The notes under the pieces: generated by a model
The model's database searches: none
What the model was told of the DNA's origin: nothing
The model's input: the letters and a program-made list of their open reading frames with translations, nothing else
Source: Bacteroidota bacterium
GTDB taxonomy: Bacteria > Bacteroidota > Bacteroidia > SXHM01
DNA length: 64,000 bases
Direction of reading: 5' to 3'
Assembly (NCBI GenBank): GCA_947479755.1
Contig: CANKAM010000003.1
Coordinates: 32,001 to 96,000 of the forward strand
Shown here: positions 6,916-53,701 of the stretch, piece after piece
Layout of the letters: each line of letters starts with the position of its first letter
Numbering within the stretch: the first letter of the stretch is position 1
Made by a program: the position numbers and the translations under genes

Positions 6916-8502
6916 ATGGCAGACACAAATCTGAAATGCGTTTTATCCATTGACCTGGGTTCAAGCGGACCAAAGGTTTCGGTAGTGAGCCAGAACGGTG
7001 AAATTCTAGCGAGCCGTTCAGGACATTTTGATAGCGAGTATTCTCAAAACGGAAAAGCCGTAGAGCAGGATGCAGAAGGCTGGTGGAAACAGATATTACA
7101 ACTGTCGAAAGAAGTTATTGATGAATCGAAAACGGCAAGCAACATTGTTGCGATAGGTACCTGCTCACAGTATTTTACTTCGGTGCCGGTAGATGAGCAG
7201 GGGAATGCTGTTCACAACGCCATTATGTGGGAAGATGCGCGGGCGAGCAAACACATCAAAAAAATCATGGGCGGTTTCCCGTCCATTTTGGATTACAATA
7301 TTTTCAAGCTGCTGAAATGGTTGTATTCGGTGGGCATCCCTCCTATTCTTTCGGGTGTGGATGGAGGTAGTCACATGCTGCTTTTGAAAAATGAATTGCC
7401 GGAGGTTTGGAAAAAAACGTACAAGGTGTTAGAGCCTTCGGATTTTCTGAGTCTGAAGTTGACGGGGAAATTTCAAACCAACGAAAACACAGGCTTTGCT
7501 TATACGCTAATAAAAAAAGCTGCCTGGAGCAAAGGAAATTACGATAAGAGTTTGGTGGAATATCTTGGATTAGACATTAACCGTTTCCCGGATGTTGTTC
7601 CCGTTGGCGAAAACCTTGGCAAGCCCACGGATGCGGTTATTAACTACCTCGGCCTTTCGGAAAATGTAAAAGTATTTTCGGGTATGCAGGACACTACTGC
7701 GTGTATTCTTGGCGGTGGCGCTTTCAGCGATTTTGACACGGTGATAGAGATAGGAACTACGCTGAACACGGGTGTAGTTATCAATAAGCGCATCATTGAT
7801 ATTCTGAACGGAATTTATTCGGTAAGCAGTCCTGTTCCGAACAAATATATTTTAGTGGGTGAGGCAGGTGCAGGCGCCAAAGCGCTGAACTATTTAATGC
7901 ATAGTTTTTTACGGGTGGAGGATGACCTTTCACGCATCAATGCAGAAACGGATTCGCACTACGGCAAGATTGCCGATGATATGGCGGCAGCATCACCGGT
8001 GGGAAGTAACGGGGTGGTATTTCTGCCTTGGATATTTGGTTCTACTTTTCCGGAACAAGACCTGAATATGAAGGGAGGATTTATCAATCTTGGTCCTTCC
8101 ACAAAACGCAACGATATGATACGCGCGGTGTTTGAATCATACGCTATGAATTTTAAATGGGTGCTGGAGATAAAGGAGAAAATATTGAAGCGGAAAATTG
8201 AGAAAGTGCATTTCACAGGTGGCGGTGCGTTGTGGGAAACAGCTGTACAGATTTGTGCAGATGCATTGAAAGTGCCTGTTTACCTGATGGACGAGCCGCG
8301 ACAAGCAAACACCAAAGGCATTGCTTTTATGTGTTTCAATAATTTGGGAGTTGTGAGTTATGATGAAATGAGAACGAAACTGAAAGTGAAGAAAGTGTAT
8401 CAGCCCAACCCGGATAACTTTGCGTTTTACGATAAGCGTATGGCCTTTTTCAAGAAGATGTATAAGACCGTAAGGCCCTTATATGCGGATTTGAATAAGT
8501 AG
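6916..8502 (+). CDS. FGGY family carbohydrate kinase (xylulokinase-like)
   Basis: A 528-residue two-domain kinase of the FGGY family. The N-terminal phosphate motif is SIDLGSSGPKVSVV at about 10-23 and the second nucleotide-binding domain carries FTGGGALWETAVQICAD at about 434-450. Members phosphorylate sugars or polyols with ATP, most often xylulose, ribulose or glycerol. The sequence is nearest in feel to xylulokinase-type proteins, but the specificity cannot be read. It is cotranscribed with the upstream S1P-lyase-like gene (six-base gap), which is an unusual pairing for a sugar kinase. Its stop is only three bases from the end of the convergent amidase gene. Confidence 0.82.
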   Translation: MADTNLKCVLSIDLGSSGPKVSVVSQNGEILASRSGHFDSEYSQNGKAVEQDAEGWWKQILQLSKEVIDESKTASNIVAIGTCSQYFTSVPVDEQGNAVHNAIMWEDARASKHIKKIMGGFPSILDYNIFKLLKWLYSVGIPPILSGVDGGSHMLLLKNELPEVWKKTYKVLEPSDFLSLKLTGKFQTNENTGFAYTLIKKAAWSKGNYDKSLVEYLGLDINRFPDVVPVGENLGKPTDAVINYLGLSENVKVFSGMQDTTACILGGGAFSDFDTVIEIGTTLNTGVVINKRIIDILNGIYSVSSPVPNKYILVGEAGAGAKALNYLMHSFLRVEDDLSRINAETDSHYGKIADDMAAASPVGSNGVVFLPWIFGSTFPEQDLNMKGGFINLGPSTKRNDMIRAVFESYAMNFKWVLEIKEKILKRKIEKVHFTGGGALWETAVQICADALKVPVYLMDEPRQANTKGIAFMCFNNLGVVSYDEMRTKLKVKKVYQPNPDNFAFYDKRMAFFKKMYKTVRPLYADLNK

Positions 8503-8505
8503 AAA

Positions 8506-9924
8506 TCAAGCGTTGTAAATAAACCTCCACGGTTTAGCTGCTTCCAGTTCGTAGGCCAGTTCAATCAATCGTTTATCAAAACCGTAAGGCGCTGAAAAGT
8601 TCACACCCAGAGGCATTCCGTCAGTATCAAGACCTAATGGAAGTGATATAGCCGGTGCGCCTGTAACATTGTTCAATCCGGTGTAGGATGCAAAATCAAC
8701 TGCACGTTTTGAAACCTCTTCGTAAGAAAGTTGAGGAGAGAAATAACCAATCTTAGGCGTCTTGTGTGAAAGTACAGGAGACATCAACACATCGTATTTG
8801 TGGAAGAGTTTTTCCGACTCCAATCCTGTTTTTTTCATCGCACGAATACTTGCAGGAAGCTTCATCATATTTGTTCTGAAGCGCTCGGCAAGCCCTGTAG
8901 TAAAGGGTTCTAATAAGCTGCGGTCAACTTTAGTTTTCAATGTTAAACGCGACCAGTGCGACATCATGTAAGAGAAGAAACCATAATAATTAAGGAAATT
9001 ATTTACCATTTTATCCACGTCCAGCGGAAAAGGAATTTGTTCCACATGATGACCAAGTGATTGCAATAACTCCGCTGTTTCTTTTTGTGTTCTGTAAGTA
9101 TCTGCGTCCTGACTTGCTGTTTTGCCAGCAGGAAGATTTTCAAAAAAAGCAATGCGCAGACGTTGCTTTGAACCTTCTTTAACATGCCCCAGTTTTGGGA
9201 TGCGTGCATAGCTGTAATATTTTTCTGCTTCGGCATAAAACAAAGCAGTGTCTCGCACGGTGCGGGTAAGCACACCCTGGTGAACCAACTGCACCGGCAT
9301 TGCTTCCCCTCCGTCAAGACCATATATGCGGTGACGTGATGGTTTCAATCCCACCAAGCCACAAATAGCAGCCGGTATGCGGATAGAGCCTGCACCGTCA
9401 TTTGCAGAAGCAATAGCAACTACACCACTTGCCACCATAGCTGCAGAACCAGATGATGAGCCGCCTGTGGTATAATCGGTGTTCCAGGGATTGCGGGTTA
9501 TTCCCCAACGTTCGTTCTCGGTGCTGCAGATTAAACCGAATTCAGGGAGGGTTGTTTTTCCAAGATTACGCACACCTGTAGAAAGAAATTGGTTTACAAA
9601 TTTGCTGTTGCTCTTTGCAGGTTTTGCTTTTAAAGCTCCTGTTCCTAATTGGGTTGGATACCCCGTAATGTTATCACTGTCTTTTATAAAAGTGGGAACA
9701 CCGTACAATCCACCACCTGCTTTTTGCTGAGAACCTTTGCGTGCATCATCGTACATTTTTATTACAATGGCGTTGAGTTCTCCGTTTACTTTTTCTGCAC
9801 GGGCAATAGCGGCTTCAACTGCTTCTTCAACAGAAATAGTTTTTGTGGCTATTGCTTCTGCTATTGCAGTAGCATCCATGTTGCCGAGTGCATCGTCTGT
9901 AAATGCGTTAACTCTTTTCCCCAT
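8506..9924 (-). CDS. Amidase signature family protein
   Basis: A 472-residue amidase with the Ser-cisSer-Lys triad visible: Lys81 in GVPTFIKDS, Ser156 in TTGGSSSGSAA and the nucleophile Ser180 in GAGSIRIPA. The 24-residue spacing between the two serines is the same as in fatty acid amide hydrolase. It shows no signal peptide, and it lacks the gatB partner expected for a glutamyl-tRNA amidotransferase subunit, so a small-molecule amide is the likely substrate. The gene follows tatC after 23 bases on the same strand and converges on the kinase gene. Confidence 0.85.
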   Translation of the reverse strand: MGKRVNAFTDDALGNMDATAIAEAIATKTISVEEAVEAAIARAEKVNGELNAIVIKMYDDARKGSQQKAGGGLYGVPTFIKDSDNITGYPTQLGTGALKAKPAKSNSKFVNQFLSTGVRNLGKTTLPEFGLICSTENERWGITRNPWNTDYTTGGSSSGSAAMVASGVVAIASANDGAGSIRIPAAICGLVGLKPSRHRIYGLDGGEAMPVQLVHQGVLTRTVRDTALFYAEAEKYYSYARIPKLGHVKEGSKQRLRIAFFENLPAGKTASQDADTYRTQKETAELLQSLGHHVEQIPFPLDVDKMVNNFLNYYGFFSYMMSHWSRLTLKTKVDRSLLEPFTTGLAERFRTNMMKLPASIRAMKKTGLESEKLFHKYDVLMSPVLSHKTPKIGYFSPQLSYEEVSKRAVDFASYTGLNNVTGAPAISLPLGLDTDGMPLGVNFSAPYGFDKRLIELAYELEAAKPWRFIYNA

Positions 9925-16176: not shown

Positions 16177-17073
16177 ATGGAAGAAAAACTCCAGCGCATT
16201 TATGATTTTGTTGGCCCGGGATTGTATGTGATAGCCATCACGAGCATGATAGCGGAAGGTATTCTGCTGCGCTGGATGAAAGAGAAAGCCGATGTGAAGC
16301 ACGGAGTAGTGAGCATGGTCTCCGGTCTTTTTGCATTCGGCAGCATTGCCGTGGCGCAAGTGCTTTACAACTTTGCTATTATCAGTCTGTGTTGGCAATA
16401 CCGTTTTTTTACGCTCGGCTTTGAGTGGTATGTATGGGTAGCCTGTTTCCTGTTGTATGATTTTTCGTTTTACTGGCTGCATCGCTGGTCGCACGAGGTG
16501 CGGTTGCTCTGGTGCATACACAGCGTGCATCATACCAGTGAGGAGATGCGCCTGACCTCCGGTATCCGCGGCAGCATGTTTGACTTTGTGCTTTCGCCTG
16601 TGTTTTTTGTGTGGCTTCCGTTACTAGGTTTTCATCCTATGCTGTTCCTCATTACCGAAACCATTTCAAAATTGTGGGGCTTGTTTGAGCATGTGAATAT
16701 CCGATTTGTAAACCGTTTGTCGGTGTTGGATAAAATTCTGATTACACCTTCCGTGCATCGCGTGCATCATGGAAAAGAAATAAAATACTTAGACACCAAT
16801 TACTCCGAGATATTTCTCTTTTGGGATCATTTATTTGGCTCTTACACTCCCGAAGAAGAGTTGCCCACATATGGTGTTTTAAAAGGCACAGACCCGCGAA
16901 ACTTCAGCGAGAGCCAGTTCGGGTCGTTCCGCGACCTTTGGTATGATTTAAAACGCTCACCTTCGTTTAGCTCTAAGCTGAAGTATCTGTTTTATCCTCC
17001 GGGCTGGAGCCATGATGGGGAGGACAGAAGGACGAAGACCTTGAAGAAGCATTATCAGCTTAATAACACATAG
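16177..17073 (+). CDS. Sterol desaturase / fatty acid hydroxylase superfamily membrane protein
   Basis: A 298-residue polytopic protein with the histidine clusters that bind a di-iron centre: HRWSHE (about 109-114), HSVHHTSEE (about 121-129) and HRVHHG further on. The superfamily hydroxylates or desaturates lipids in the membrane using O2. Related Bacteroidota proteins act on carotenoids, sterol-like lipids or ether lipids; the substrate cannot be told here. The start at ATG 16177 lies 37 bases after the palindromic element. Confidence 0.85.
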   Translation: MEEKLQRIYDFVGPGLYVIAITSMIAEGILLRWMKEKADVKHGVVSMVSGLFAFGSIAVAQVLYNFAIISLCWQYRFFTLGFEWYVWVACFLLYDFSFYWLHRWSHEVRLLWCIHSVHHTSEEMRLTSGIRGSMFDFVLSPVFFVWLPLLGFHPMLFLITETISKLWGLFEHVNIRFVNRLSVLDKILITPSVHRVHHGKEIKYLDTNYSEIFLFWDHLFGSYTPEEELPTYGVLKGTDPRNFSESQFGSFRDLWYDLKRSPSFSSKLKYLFYPPGWSHDGEDRRTKTLKKHYQLNNT

Positions 17074-17075
17074 CT

Positions 17076-17400
17076 CCGTACATGTATTGCAGCGTGTAAC
17101 CCTAACCTCACAACGTTCCGTACATATTTTTATCCCTGTCAGCTTACTGTCAAGCATTGTAGTCTTAACATCAGAGTTCTCCGTACATATTTTATAATGT
17201 ATGACGGACATGTTATACCATTCCGTACATATTTTACAGTCTGTCACGATTACATTGTACAACTGCGTACATAATTTATAATATTATAACACCTGTTTCA
17301 AGGATTGCAACCTAACAACAAAGTAATTCCGTACATATATTTTACGTTGTAACGCAACTATTGTGTAGTTCCGTACATATTTTTTATACCTTCGCAACTG
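17076..17400. repeat. 21-bp-phased repeat array 1 (seven copies of CCGTACATATTTT)
   Basis: Copies begin at 17076, 17118, 17181, 17223, 17265, 17329 and 17371. The intervals are 42, 63, 42, 42, 64 and 42, that is two or three times 21 bp. The conserved core is CCGTACATATTTT; first bases vary only in the fifth copy and the first copy has GTATTG at the end. Between cores are unlike 21-base blocks, many beginning TnAC. The last copy runs into the -7 box of the 17420 gene. This fills the whole gene-free stretch 17074-17419. No cas genes and no integrase are near. Confidence 0.85.
17387..17394 (+). promoter_or_regulatory. -7 box TACCTTCG at the end of array 1
   Basis: A TAnnTTCG variant 25 bases before the ATG at 17420, starting just 16 bases after the last CCGTACAT copy begins. 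Confidence 0.5.
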
Positions 17401-17419
17401 CATTTTATATATAAATCCC

Positions 17420-18103
17420 ATGATCAGACGTAACCGCATACCTGAAAAGGACACAGATTTCAGTAATTACATCTACCGCACCACTGCGGCATTGCTCAAC
17501 GGCACACCACCAACCTGGCAGCGACTTCGCCTGCTTGAATCTGACAAAAACAAGTGGATTGAGTTCATGCACCAGTGGGATGATATGTATCCAAAATATA
17601 CTGACCTGAGTAAGCGAACAATGGGGGTAACTGCCGAAAAAAACAGAATAAAAAAAGAGTTTACCCGGTTTGCACAACCTGTTCTTAACCAAATGAGCGG
17701 CAGTTATGCCACTTCAGGCGACCGCCTTACCTTTAACCTCCGCAAAAAAGAACGCCCCTACAGCAAACGCGGTAAAATTGAAGAATCGCCTGATGCCCAT
17801 GTGCAATCCATTAGCGGTGGTCAACTGAAAATACGTGTGCGCAGAGCAAATCAGGAAGGCAGACGCGGTAAACATCCGCTTGCCGATGTAGTGGAGGTGC
17901 GCTACTGGTATGGGCATCGTGTGCTTACAATGCCCATTGAACAATGTGTAAATTCCTTTACCACCGGCAAAACTTATTTTATTATGAAAATGCCGGAAGA
18001 TGCTATTGGCAAGTGGGCGTATTTTTATTTCCGCTGGGCCATTGCAGGAAATGCAGAAAACAGCGGACCATACAGTGCAATGCAGATAGCGGTGGTGGGG
18101 TAG
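17420..18103 (+). CDS. Unknown protein behind repeat array 1
   Basis: The 227-residue product is not recognised. Residues about 1-95 are rich in aromatic and charged residues and look helical (DFSNYIYRTTAALL, WQRLRLLESDKNKW). About 110-227 looks like beta-strands ending in KWAYFYFRWAIAG and SGPYS, like an immunoglobulin or fibronectin-type domain. There is no signal peptide, membrane span or enzyme motif. The gene stands alone between array 1 and purB. The two-part plan, helical then beta, is shared in outline with the 39468 protein, which also lies beside a 21-bp array. Confidence 0.75.
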   Translation: MIRRNRIPEKDTDFSNYIYRTTAALLNGTPPTWQRLRLLESDKNKWIEFMHQWDDMYPKYTDLSKRTMGVTAEKNRIKKEFTRFAQPVLNQMSGSYATSGDRLTFNLRKKERPYSKRGKIEESPDAHVQSISGGQLKIRVRRANQEGRRGKHPLADVVEVRYWYGHRVLTMPIEQCVNSFTTGKTYFIMKMPEDAIGKWAYFYFRWAIAGNAENSGPYSAMQIAVVG

Positions 18104-34152: not shown

Positions 34153-34181
34153 TTTACCGCTAAGGCGCAAAGACGCTAAGG
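34153..34181. repeat. Interspersed repeat (CCGCTAAGGCGCAAAGACGC type), left of GxxExxY
   Basis: The core is CCGCTAAGGCGCAAAGACGC. The same family occurs at 34651 (inverted), 37268 and 38365. Read as protein it gives the FTAKAQRR peptide often seen in Bacteroidota shadow ORFs. Confidence 0.75.
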
Positions 34182-36527: not shown

Positions 36528-36573
36528 ACCACCCCACCACCCCCTAACCCCCTCCTTGAAAAAAGGAGGGGGA
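36528..36573. repeat. Palindromic element CCCCCTCCTT...AAGGAGGGGG, inverted copy
   Basis: CCCCTCCTTG and AAGGAGGGG form the hairpin, with a CCACCCCCTAAC flank. Read on the minus strand it matches the elements at 41190-41231 (inside ybeY) and 41433-41471. Confidence 0.75.
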
Positions 36574-38887: not shown

Positions 38888-39235
38888 CTATTTTTTACTC
38901 ACCACCTCCCAATACCTGTCCCGCTCCTCTCCTACCCTTTTCAGTTCATTTTCAAGTTCGGTTATTTTTTCTTTCATCATTTTTTCGCGTTGGGTAATGC
39001 GCTTGTGTTCGGGCAGCAGGTCAAGGTAATACTCAAACAGGTTTACGTGCAGTATATCGGTTAGGGTGAGCAGCAGCGAGGCTTTCGGGTCACCATTTTT
39101 CAGTATCTTATTATAATAGGTTTGGCTTTTACCGGTTTTAAGTGCCAGTTTGCGTAGTGAGGTACCTTTAACTTTTGCCCATCCTTTTATAATGGTAAGC
39201 ATATCGGGCAGTTGGGGGTGTTTAGTGGTGGTCAT
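38888..39235 (-). CDS. Short HTH (XRE-like) protein with C-terminal coiled coil, beside array 2
   Basis: I start this 115-residue protein at ATG 39235. Residues about 24-62 fit a Cro/C1-type helix-turn-helix (SLRKLALKTGKSQTYYNKILKNG), and the last 40 residues form a heptad-patterned helix (MMKEKITELENELKRVGEERD) for dimerisation. It is likely a DNA-binding regulator. Its coding strand begins some 30 bases from array 2, which is the whole of its upstream region, so it may bind the array and control itself; that is inference. Confidence 0.78.
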   Translation of the reverse strand: MTTTKHPQLPDMLTIIKGWAKVKGTSLRKLALKTGKSQTYYNKILKNGDPKASLLLTLTDILHVNLFEYYLDLLPEHKRITQREKMMKEKITELENELKRVGEERDRYWEVVSKK

Positions 39236-39263
39236 GGTTGGGTGATGTGGTATTTGGGTGTTA

Positions 39264-39410
39264 TTATTTTCAGCAGGTATTTCCAAATCGTCAGCACATG
39301 ATTACAAATCCTCAGCACGTGATTACAAAACGTCAGCGCGTGTTTCCAAAACGTCAGCAGATTATTCCAAAATGGCAGCATTTTATTCCAAATGGTATAG
39401 ATAGGTTGAC
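39264..39410. repeat. 21-bp tandem repeat array 2 (seven units)
   Basis: Contiguous 21-base units start at 39264, 39285, 39306, 39327, 39348, 39369 and 39390. In units 2-5 positions 1-3 are AAA, 8-11 are CAGC and 18-21 are TTAC or TTCC; positions 4-7 and 12-17 vary. The outer units are decayed. Both strands happen to be open, giving seven-residue peptide repeats, but neither reading looks like a gene. The array separates two minus-strand genes and lies behind a strong terminator. Confidence 0.9.
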
Positions 39411-39431
39411 TAATCGTATACATGGCAAAGA

Positions 39432-39460
39432 AAAACCCCTCGCCTGTGGCGAGGGGTTTT
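39432..39460 (-). terminator. Strong terminator between the 39468 gene and array 2
   Basis: AAAACCCCTCGCC (39432-39444) and GGCGAGGGGTTTT (39448-39460) form a 13-bp perfect stem with a three-base loop; on the minus strand TTTTTCTTTG follows. It lies eight bases behind the stop of the 39468 gene and insulates array 2 from it. Confidence 0.9.
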
Positions 39461-39467
39461 AGGGGTA

Positions 39468-40418
39468 TTAGCCTATTGTAATTTTGTAGGTGCCCGCTAC
39501 AGGGGTATTGTTGAACACGCGTATTTCGTTGCCATTGGCTGCCCAATCGCCCATCAGAAAGGTGTCGCTTCCTGCGGGGTTAATCAGTTTTTGCATGCCG
39601 TTGCTCAGTCCGTTAAAATACAACTGATAAAAGAGGGTTGTTGGTCCCGGATTTTCGAGTAATACAGGGGTTGCCGCGTTGTAGGTAACTGGCACGCCTG
39701 CAAAGCTCATGGCGTTTACAGCTCCGGTTAATACGGTGCCGGTGCCACCACCACCTCCTCCTCCTCCGGGTCCTGCGGCATCATCAATTTTGCGGGCCAG
39801 CTGATATTCAAAATACAGCAGCACGGTGGTGCCGGTGTTAAAGTTTTTCATCAGCACATCTAAGGTGCTTAGTTCGCGGTCGCCTTTTTCAAACAGCAGG
39901 TCAACAGCGCGACCGGCAACCATTTTGTCTTCAATTTTTTCTTTGGGTTTGGTAACCACTGCGCGATAGGCATTGCGGGCTGTATCAAAGTTAGCAAGGT
40001 CAACAGCGTTGTATCCGTATGCGGCAAGTGAGGCCATCAGTGGCAAGGCAGTTTCATACGTTAAATCGGCAGGAGCAAGCAGGTACATGTCGCGCATGGC
40101 ACCCAGCTCGCTGCGGGTAAAGTTTATACGTTTGGCAAGGGGATAATCGCCCGTAATGGTGGCATGCGATTCAACGGCTGAGGCGGCACGCAGTATGGCT
40201 GCTATAAGGGTTTCTTGTTTCTGGGCTTTGTCAAGGGCATAGCCGGTGGTATCTTCGCTGGCTTCCTCTTCGCTGTCAACTATGTCGAGGCGGGTTTGGT
40301 CAAACAATAGTTCAACGGTTGCAATGGCAGGTATCGTGGCAAGCTGGGCAACATGGTCGTCTAAAAAGCTGCCTACTTTATTATACATGCTTAGCTTGTT
40401 TTCCTGTGTGTCATTCAT
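39468..40418 (-). CDS. Unknown two-part protein with glycine linker, array 2 locus
   Basis: The 316-residue product is not recognised. Residues about 1-215 look all-helical, with many alanines and charged residues (AVESHATITGDYPLAKR, DTARNAYRAVVTKPKEK). A run of glycines (GPGGGGGGGGTG, about 220-231) links this to about 85 residues that look like a beta-sandwich ending NTPVAGTYKITIG. There is no signal peptide or span. It follows a small HTH gene by 38 bases and is closed by a strong terminator, so the pair is probably one transcript. Confidence 0.78.
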   Translation of the reverse strand: MNDTQENKLSMYNKVGSFLDDHVAQLATIPAIATVELLFDQTRLDIVDSEEEASEDTTGYALDKAQKQETLIAAILRAASAVESHATITGDYPLAKRINFTRSELGAMRDMYLLAPADLTYETALPLMASLAAYGYNAVDLANFDTARNAYRAVVTKPKEKIEDKMVAGRAVDLLFEKGDRELSTLDVLMKNFNTGTTVLLYFEYQLARKIDDAAGPGGGGGGGGTGTVLTGAVNAMSFAGVPVTYNAATPVLLENPGPTTLFYQLYFNGLSNGMQKLINPAGSDTFLMGDWAANGNEIRVFNNTPVAGTYKITIG

Positions 40419-40456
40419 AAGATGAGGGGTTTTTGATGGTTTTGTAACTGAGTTGT

Positions 40457-40837
40457 TTATTTATTGGGGTTGGATGCTATTAGTTTTTCAAGCAAGGCAA
40501 TAATTTTTTTATTGTCTTTTTTAAGTTCAGCAACTGCCTGTATCAAAGCTTCATTAGACTCAGAGGTGCCGGCTTTGTATGCTTCCACCGGCTCACTTAC
40601 AATAAGAGCATTCATTTTTTTGTTGTAAGTCAGGAATTTTAAATCAGGAATTTCTTCCGAAAAATCATGAAGCACAATTGGTGAGGCCATTAGTAGTTTT
40701 TCGAAACCCAGTTCAGGAGTATTGCACCAACTGGTAAGAGTATTATCAGAAATATCCATCGAGTTGCAAAACACAACGCGCGAAAGCCCTGATTTATCAA
40801 AGTATTTTTTTAATAATTCACCCCGGTGTATATTCAT
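40457..40837 (-). CDS. Short HTH protein with C-terminal coiled coil, upstream in the array 2 locus
   Basis: I use ATG 40837 (126 residues) since TAATTTTG lies six bases before it. The N-terminal half looks like a Cro-type helix-turn-helix (HRGELLKKYFDKSGLSRVVF, then DISDNTLTSWCNTPELGFEK). The last 40 residues form a lysine-rich amphipathic helix (AVAELKKDNKKIIALLEKL). Its plan, HTH plus coiled coil, matches the 38888 protein at the other end of the locus, but the sequences are not close. It leads the transcript of the 39468 gene. Confidence 0.72.
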   Translation of the reverse strand: MNIHRGELLKKYFDKSGLSRVVFCNSMDISDNTLTSWCNTPELGFEKLLMASPIVLHDFSEEIPDLKFLTYNKKMNALIVSEPVEAYKAGTSESNEALIQAVAELKKDNKKIIALLEKLIASNPNK

Positions 40838-40843
40838 GGAAGG

Positions 40844-40851
40844 CAAAATTA
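40844..40851 (-). promoter_or_regulatory. -7 box TAATTTTG before the 40457 gene
   Basis: Perfect TAnnTTTG on the minus strand, six bases before ATG 40837. Confidence 0.6.
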
Positions 40852-40954: not shown

Positions 40955-40962
40955 GATATTTG
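40955..40962 (+). promoter_or_regulatory. Near-consensus -7 box GATATTTG before ybeY
   Basis: One mismatch from TAnnTTTG and six bases before ATG 40969. Confidence 0.45.
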
Positions 40963-40968
40963 CCCCCA

Positions 40969-41415
40969 ATGAGCAGCATCAATTTCTTCAACCACGAACT
41001 GAGTTTTACTCTAAAGAACAAAACAAAAGTTCGTCAGTGGTTAACCTCCGTTGCCAAAAAAGAAGGCGCAGAAATCGTAGAGCTCAACTACATTTTTTGC
41101 AGTGATGATTACCTGCTGGAGCTGAATAAAAAACACCTGAACCATAACACACTTACGGATATAATTACGTTTGATAATTCGGCATCACGTTCCCCCTCCT
41201 TATTTCAAGGAGGGGGCCAGGGGGTGGTCGGAGACATTTTTATTAGCATTGAAAGAATAACCGAAAACGCAGAAAAATTCAATGTTTCACGTGAGCACGA
41301 ACTCCACCGCGTAATGGTACATGGCCTGCTTCACCTCCTCGGCTACAAAGACAAAAAACCCGCTGACAAAGCCCAAATGACGGGCAAAGAAGATTTTTAT
41401 TTGAAGCGGTTTTAG
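40969..41415 (+). CDS. ybeY: Endoribonuclease / rRNA maturation factor YbeY
   Basis: A 148-residue metalloprotein that trims 16S rRNA ends and takes part in ribosome quality control. The zinc motif HGLLHLLGY is intact, as is NHNTLTDIITFD. Between that strand and GDIFISIERITENA lies an extra segment of about 15 residues (SRSPSLFQGGGQGVV) encoded by a palindromic repeat at 41190-41231; the insertion keeps the frame. I use ATG 40969, with a -7-like box six bases before it. The segment VSREH at about 106-110 is encoded by a partial parS-like sequence. Confidence 0.93.
   Translation: MSSINFFNHELSFTLKNKTKVRQWLTSVAKKEGAEIVELNYIFCSDDYLLELNKKHLNHNTLTDIITFDNSASRSPSLFQGGGQGVVGDIFISIERITENAEKFNVSREHELHRVMVHGLLHLLGYKDKKPADKAQMTGKEDFYLKRF
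41190..41231. repeat. Palindromic element inserted in frame within ybeY
   Basis: CCCCCTCCTT, a short loop, then AAGGAGGGGG and CCAGGGGGTGG. It matches the intergenic elements at 41433-41471 and, inverted, 36528-36573 over nearly its whole length. Confidence 0.85.
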
Positions 41416-53152: not shown

Positions 53153-53701
53153 CTATTCCCTGTAATATTCTGTCAATATTTTTTCCAATTCATCACTCTC
53201 AACATCCACCGCAATTATTTTTCCGGTGTGGTCAACCAGATAGTTTGATGGTATTGCATGCACGCTGAAAGGCTTTAGCTGTGCCGACTCCCAGCCCTTC
53301 GCATCGGTGATGTGATTTTTCCAAATCAGATTTTGTTGTACAATTCTGCGCTTCCAAAGTCCCGTATCCTGATCAAGCGAAATGCTCACCATTTCAAAAT
53401 CGTGTCCGCCAAATTTTTTGCCGCTATATGTTTTATTCAGCTCCACTAATTCAGGATTGTGTTTCAAACAATCACCACACCATGCCGCCCAAAAATTTAC
53501 GAGCAAAACTTTTTCTTCTTTAGTAAAAGTTGAAAGCGTAAGCGTATCGCCTGTTGGTGCAAATCCGGTGTAATCAGGAAGCATCGTTCCTTCTTCCAAC
53601 AAACCTTTTGGGTTACCGCACGAAGCAAAAAACAGTAAGCAGCAGACAACAACAAAACTTTGCGCCTTTGCGCCTTTGCGAGAAAAATTTTTAGCCTTCA
53701 C
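53153..53701 (-). CDS. TlpA family thioredoxin-like lipoprotein
   Basis: A 182-residue thiol-disulfide protein with a lipobox (FFASCGN) and the redox motif WCGDC in NFWAAWCGDCLKH, where most relatives have WCxxC with Pro or Val; here Gly-Asp. A cis-proline region follows in HAIPSNYLVD. The start is GTG 53701, and the n-region RKGAKAQ of the signal is encoded by an interspersed repeat (53657-53690). It may keep secreted or heme proteins reduced. Confidence 0.85.
   Translation of the reverse strand: MKAKNFSRKGAKAQSFVVVCCLLFFASCGNPKGLLEEGTMLPDYTGFAPTGDTLTLSTFTKEEKVLLVNFWAAWCGDCLKHNPELVELNKTYSGKKFGGHDFEMVSISLDQDTGLWKRRIVQQNLIWKNHITDAKGWESAQLKPFSVHAIPSNYLVDHTGKIIAVDVESDELEKILTEYYRE
53657..53690. 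repeat. Interspersed repeat (TTTGCGCCTTTGCG) in a signal-peptide coding stretch
   Basis: Two TTTGCGCC units and TTTGCGAG, the same class as the CGCAAAG repeats elsewhere; it codes Arg-Lys-Gly-Ala-Lys-Ala-Gln on the minus strand. Confidence 0.65.

Follow-up and report, generated by a model that had tools for sequence, protein, structure and literature searches.

Units consisting of an HTH gene and a tandem array of short sites recur by the dozen over the phylum Bacteroidota, often in company with proteins of unknown function; they are found throughout the genome studied as well as across the phylum, far beyond one cassette. In the 64-kb stretch of Bacteroidota DNA analysed here (the window), one such cassette occupies 38888–40837 on the minus strand of a 158-kb contig, amid housekeeping genes, in the order HTH2, family A gene, terminator, array and HTH1. 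The features of this cassette, together with the founder of a second orphan family, are as follows.

38888–39235, minus strand: HTH1, a 115-residue XRE-type HTH protein with a C-terminal coiled coil (supported by Pfam HTH_3, an AF2 model and array-bearing homologues)
39270–39395, minus strand: array of six full 21-bp units (TRF, column-information scan, same array in a second strain)
39432–39460, minus strand: intrinsic-terminator-like perfect 13-bp inverted repeat that ends the family A gene and is followed by a T-run
39468–40418, minus strand: family A protein, 316 residues, an orphan with no database match
40457–40837, minus strand: HTH2, a 126-residue small HTH-like protein with a predicted C-terminal coiled coil (supported by distant counterparts)
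17420–18103, plus strand: founder of family B, a 227-residue orphan with a C-terminal Fn3-like domain, directly 3' of array 1

The 21-bp array is observed by two measures. TRF reported a period of 21 at 39270–39392 with a score of 113, the top array of the window, and a column-information scan gave z = 12.3 at period 21, with 5.9 at the next best place. A preliminary description had counted seven units; we found six full units with a half unit at either end, reaching ~39249 and ~39416. Its account of fixed and variable positions held: CAGC and TT(C/A)CAAA are constant, the middle varies, and mismatches are unevenly distributed across columns (p = 0.014). The 13-bp perfect terminator that it reported was likewise recovered, and the positions bear out its claim that the array, lying between the 316-residue gene and HTH1, fills the whole region upstream of the latter and nearly abuts its start codon. 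In another MAG of this species (CAMBRL010000053.1, deposited as 'Chitinophaga pinensis'), which matches at 99.94% over 8.2 kb, the same six units are present with one SNP. Of 18 genomic occurrences of the motif CAGCNNNTNNTTNCAAA (reversed-pattern control, 3), six lie in the array and 12 are single, scattered copies; there is therefore no second cluster outside the array, and a regulon hypothesis for this motif was rejected. Other repeats in the window include a REP-like palindrome (CCCCCTCCTT..AAGGAGGGGG) at 36548, 41192 and 41435, the copy at 41192 lying in frame within a ybeY-like ORF (40960–41415), dispersed GCAAAGACGC elements at 34167, 37283 and 38370, and a tandem run of CTTTGCGC at 53658.

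HTH1 matches Pfam HTH_3 with E = 8.6e-6 and 26.1 bits against a gathering cutoff of 23, which meets the criterion for an XRE (HTH_3) domain. Judged from its homologues, its start is better taken as the ATG at 39235 than as TTG at 39286. A single-sequence AF2 model predicts helices at residues 12–23, 27–33, 38–47 (recognition) and 50–73 and a long helix at 75–114, with pLDDT ~90 in the outer part of the long helix and low confidence in the N-terminal part. Residues 38–47, the predicted third helix, served as the recognition-helix segment in the substitution tests below and fall in the low-confidence region. HTH similarity is weak for HTH2, which has distant counterparts 5' of the family A gene in two paralogous cassettes; the counterpart in one of them (L015) shows 23% identity and E = 1e-7 in pairwise comparison and itself has a weak HTH_26 match.

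The 316-residue family A protein combines a helical N-terminal domain of ~210 residues, a Gly-rich linker and a beta-type C-terminal domain; the family is acidic to neutral (median pI 6.2). Searches of Pfam, NCBIfam, PHROGs and PADLOC returned nothing for the 316-residue protein, no signal peptide is apparent in it, and its single-sequence AF2 model reached a pLDDT of only 36, giving no usable structure; matches to PDB sequences were confined to a CarboxypepD_reg insert of some paralogues. Ten further matches lie in the same genome, where contig C56 carries a complete second cassette whose HTH1 homologue is 48% identical, and 17 of 395 genomes sampled from the phylum contain the family. The founder of family B follows array 1 (17053–17400, plus strand), in which a second unit type (TGTAAC..AAC) lies between TCCGTACATATTTT sites at spacings of 42, 63 and 64. 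Its paralogues likewise have arrays, some of them without a 21-bp signal and built of composite 42-bp units. Family B, a basic family with a median pI of 9.3, occurs in 3 of the 395 genomes, all of which also have A; the N-terminal domains of the two families show no clear homology (hhalign probability 23%). A third orphan family, C, has its C-terminal domain in common with A. Its arrays (L070–L074 and L023, in the same genome) have a period of 41 and mostly one 13–17-bp palindrome per unit, such as CCGTAACCGTTACGG, and no DNA-binding neighbour was seen among the loci read. All three families have many paralogues within this genome. A mobile or viral origin was rejected, family A having no relatives among viral contigs, phages or plasmids and family B none among viral contigs, as was a defence system, PADLOC giving no significant match.

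Recurrence was assessed at 72 A and B genes from the same genome and its relatives, an array being defined as a stretch of at least 55% identity at lag 21 within 700 bp upstream of the gene. Such an array lay upstream of 50 of the 72 and just downstream, as in the window, of five more; other lags from 15 to 30 gave 0–3 loci each, and the controls gave 3/66 (distal region) and 0/18 (unrelated loci). An independent phylum-wide set reproduced the period (lag 21 in 25 of 35 loci, no other lag above 3). One family A locus (L140) carries a 22-bp array in place of a 21-bp one. Arrays hold 6–22 units (median 13), and the motif differs from array to array at nearly every locus, with mismatches limited to certain columns in 30 of 56 arrays (p < 0.01). 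The placement of the promoter motif TAnnTTTG relative to the arrays was not clear. Of 198 relatives, 10 have HTH1 homologues. Nine of these 10 had A or B matches; in the tenth (G503), which lay outside the A and B searches, a family A gene adjoins the HTH1 gene. The genome survey thus found that the gene order does recur: the array sits at or just before the start in 15 of the 16 HTH1-homologue loci, and a family A gene lies just upstream in eight.

Small, stand-alone DNA-binding genes often lie beside the arrays. Among the 51 nearest genes, some picked by hand where the automatic ORF call was spurious, were LytTR (9), HTH_26 (7), HTH_3 (5), GerE (4) and AraC (2) members, the HTH_26 and HTH_3 sets possibly overlapping; none of these families was among the top 25 (down to two members) listed for 79 next-neighbour control genes. 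The period therefore stays constant although binders of different classes (XRE, LytTR, LuxR, AraC) can take each other's place. Direct repeats 18–21 bp apart, a distance of two helical turns, are a known target of LytTR proteins (PMC11347149). Four arrays (L020, L084, L085 and L127) have no recognisable DNA-binding neighbour. At three further loci (L018, L021 and L081) the gene beside the array, where a DNA-binding gene would otherwise stand, encodes a protein of 115–121 residues that lacks a convincing Pfam match and could represent a new DNA-binding family. At L024 a tyrosine recombinase gene (7637–8701 of that locus) lies near an array cassette.

Comparative evidence bears on which protein reads the array. 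In a pair of HTH1 proteins whose motifs differ, substitutions concentrate in the recognition helix (5/10 against 13/104 elsewhere, p = 0.009), as they do in a second close pair with differing motifs (7/10 against 29/113, p = 0.007), whereas a pair sharing its motif shows no such concentration (2/10 against 24/102, p = 0.73). Across 13 HTH1 homologues, motif similarity tracks identity in the recognition helix even once the remainder of the protein is taken into account (permutation p = 0.013), and the motif is conserved in three orthologues (L192, L193 and L195). A second HTH family, HTH_26, was followed at 30 loci in 13 genomes: every locus had 21 as its best lag and an array upstream of the HTH gene, and at 21 of them no A or B gene lay within ~1.5 kb. 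HTH_26 genes with AATTAA-type arrays and neither A nor B within 1.5 kb were noted at L203, L204, L207, L213, L214, L220 and L223; L213 and L220 are payload-free paralogues of one genome. Motif similarity follows HTH similarity in this set (r = 0.65–0.72, permutation p = 0.0003), far above a reverse-complement control. Outside the recognition helix, the rest of the protein tracks the motif no less closely than the helix does, and shared descent is therefore part of the signal. These arrays, mostly without A or B and always 5' of the HTH gene, lead us to assign the array to the HTH gene and to see payloads as additions to it. The earlier proposal of a self-contained cassette read by one or both HTH proteins is thus supported, with corrections. 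Its gene order recurs, with the array tied to the HTH gene and not to the payload; HTH1, on the recurring order and the recognition-helix covariation and in the absence of binding data, is the likely reader, and there is no evidence that HTH2 reads the array.

Closely related loci reveal how arrays change. Two near-identical loci from two genomes (L036 and L110) differ by exactly three units, 63 bp. In orthologous, flank-matched LytTR/B cassettes (L035 and L112), flanking proteins are 88% identical and yet the palindromic array motif is wholly different (TTCTGTC..GACAGAA versus TTCCGCC..GGCNGAA). It follows that whole units are added to and lost from arrays, and that arrays undergo homogenisation in the manner of satellites. 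The second comparison also calls for caution, since the LytTR protein remains 88% identical despite the replaced motif, without visible change in step. Arrays of B genes are frequently palindromic, unlike those of A genes, and the symmetry of an array thus goes with the payload family as well.

In the reading that we think probable, with no binding or expression data behind it, the HTH protein reads its own array, which would serve as a helically phased, fast-evolving, private autoregulatory operator, and family A rides along. At its smallest, the unit would comprise one small HTH gene preceded by an array of its own. HTH1 would occupy one site per 21 bp; this distance being two helical turns, all sites would lie on one face of the helix. 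Binding itself is inferred, as is cooperativity, which might arise through the coiled coil. HTH1 would regulate its own gene. Steep autorepression is the most likely mode, the sign of regulation being a default inference, and HTH1 might build a nucleoprotein filament on the array. As a private operator the array would gain and lose whole units, have its motif homogenised and be quickly replaced; the recognition helix changing along with the motif, many modules could coexist in one genome. The A and B genes would be payloads beside the module, with the array often at their promoter too. For family A, that of an accompanying payload is the best explanation; any role is inferred and its function is unknown.

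A bolder proposal, which we consider unlikely but keep in view, makes the modules phylum-wide, self-addressed, mutually orthogonal, motorless chromosomal nucleoprotein landmarks: the HTH protein would coat its own satellite-like array and recruit an A- or B-type payload, array and recognition helix being locked in fast coevolution. In that last respect they would resemble centromeric satellites and their proteins. Filament or scaffold roles can still be entertained, since the closest parallels in mechanism are the ParR–parC and TubR–tubC centromeres, in which a small DNA-binding protein binds tandem direct repeats before its own gene, represses itself and forms filaments (PMC5016525). A centromere-like scaffold, with an HTH filament that positions DNA or docks family A and autoregulation as a by-product, nevertheless seems to us a weak candidate. 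Small HTH proteins on direct repeats before their own operon that are also repressors are a hallmark of type II/III partition (PMC5016525); the array abutting HTH1 meets the criterion of a direct-repeat centromere 5' of the operon, and array sizes are similar to those of partition centromeres. The ParM/TubZ motor NTPase is, however, missing from the cassette (ORFs, Pfam and NCBIfam scans). Unlike partition systems, moreover, the modules, apparently chromosomal, are numerous and private within each genome with differing motifs, built on a strict 21-bp unit and accompanied by an unknown payload or, in many units, by no payload gene.

That the payload, A or B, reads the array instead of the HTH protein is improbable. 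Arrays do occur at A and B genes even without a visible DNA-binding neighbour, their symmetry follows the payload family, family C has its 41-bp arrays and family B is basic; against this, the 21 HTH_26 arrays without A or B, the constant position 5' of the HTH gene, the covariation of recognition helix and motif and the acidic to neutral pI of family A all favour the HTH protein. More doubtful still is a sequence-neutral array, whether satellite or intrinsically curved DNA, in which helical period alone counts. In-phase repeats do bend DNA, and the motifs differ at almost all loci and turn over fast, but column-wise constraint, the motif kept in the three orthologues and its covariation with the HTH protein speak against neutrality. 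A heptad-repeat peptide (21 bp being seven codons) or a guide-RNA-like transcript can practically be dismissed: 21 is a multiple of three and open frames cross some arrays, but 36 of 56 keep no ORF, with stops in all six frames, so that arrays are not coding, and a CRISPR-like array fails on the strict spacing of 21, on the absence of effector, nuclease and spacer-acquisition genes beside it and on the lack of any Rfam match at gathering score in the window.

The components and the mode of array reading are of known type, namely operator or centromere arrays, and the whole system fails a defining test of each known system considered. AraC operators are direct repeats two turns apart, bound on one helix face. 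LytTR operators, at 18–21 bp centre to centre with binders likewise on one face (PMC11347149), resemble the 21-bp arrays. Both, however, have 2–3 sites against 6–22 in the arrays, and HTH1 is an XRE protein. Plasmid iterons are direct repeats of ~20 bp bound by a cognate, often autoregulatory protein; the window cassette is apparently chromosomal, with no origin and no Rep family match in Pfam or NCBIfam. XRE autorepressors, including HTH antitoxins, are like HTH1 small proteins with an upstream operator, but the putative operator of HTH1 is a long array and family A matches no toxin family. A toxin–antitoxin system accordingly fails its defining test, as neither Pfam, NCBIfam, PHROGs nor PADLOC places A in a known toxin family, and a new toxin cannot be excluded. 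No published description was found in the full-text literature searched; preprints and subscription papers were outside this scope, so a prior description cannot be ruled out. The system is apparently undescribed in its combination of an exchangeable small binder, a private two-turn array and an orphan payload, many per genome and phylum-wide.

What emerges is a recurrent layout of a stand-alone DNA-binding gene, a private two-turn array and an orphan payload. Because every module supplies both a reader and the sites that belong to it, the modules would offer a ready set of orthogonal DNA-binding pairs. They constitute a natural experiment in the coevolution of reader and site, and give a starting point for work on three large orphan protein families.
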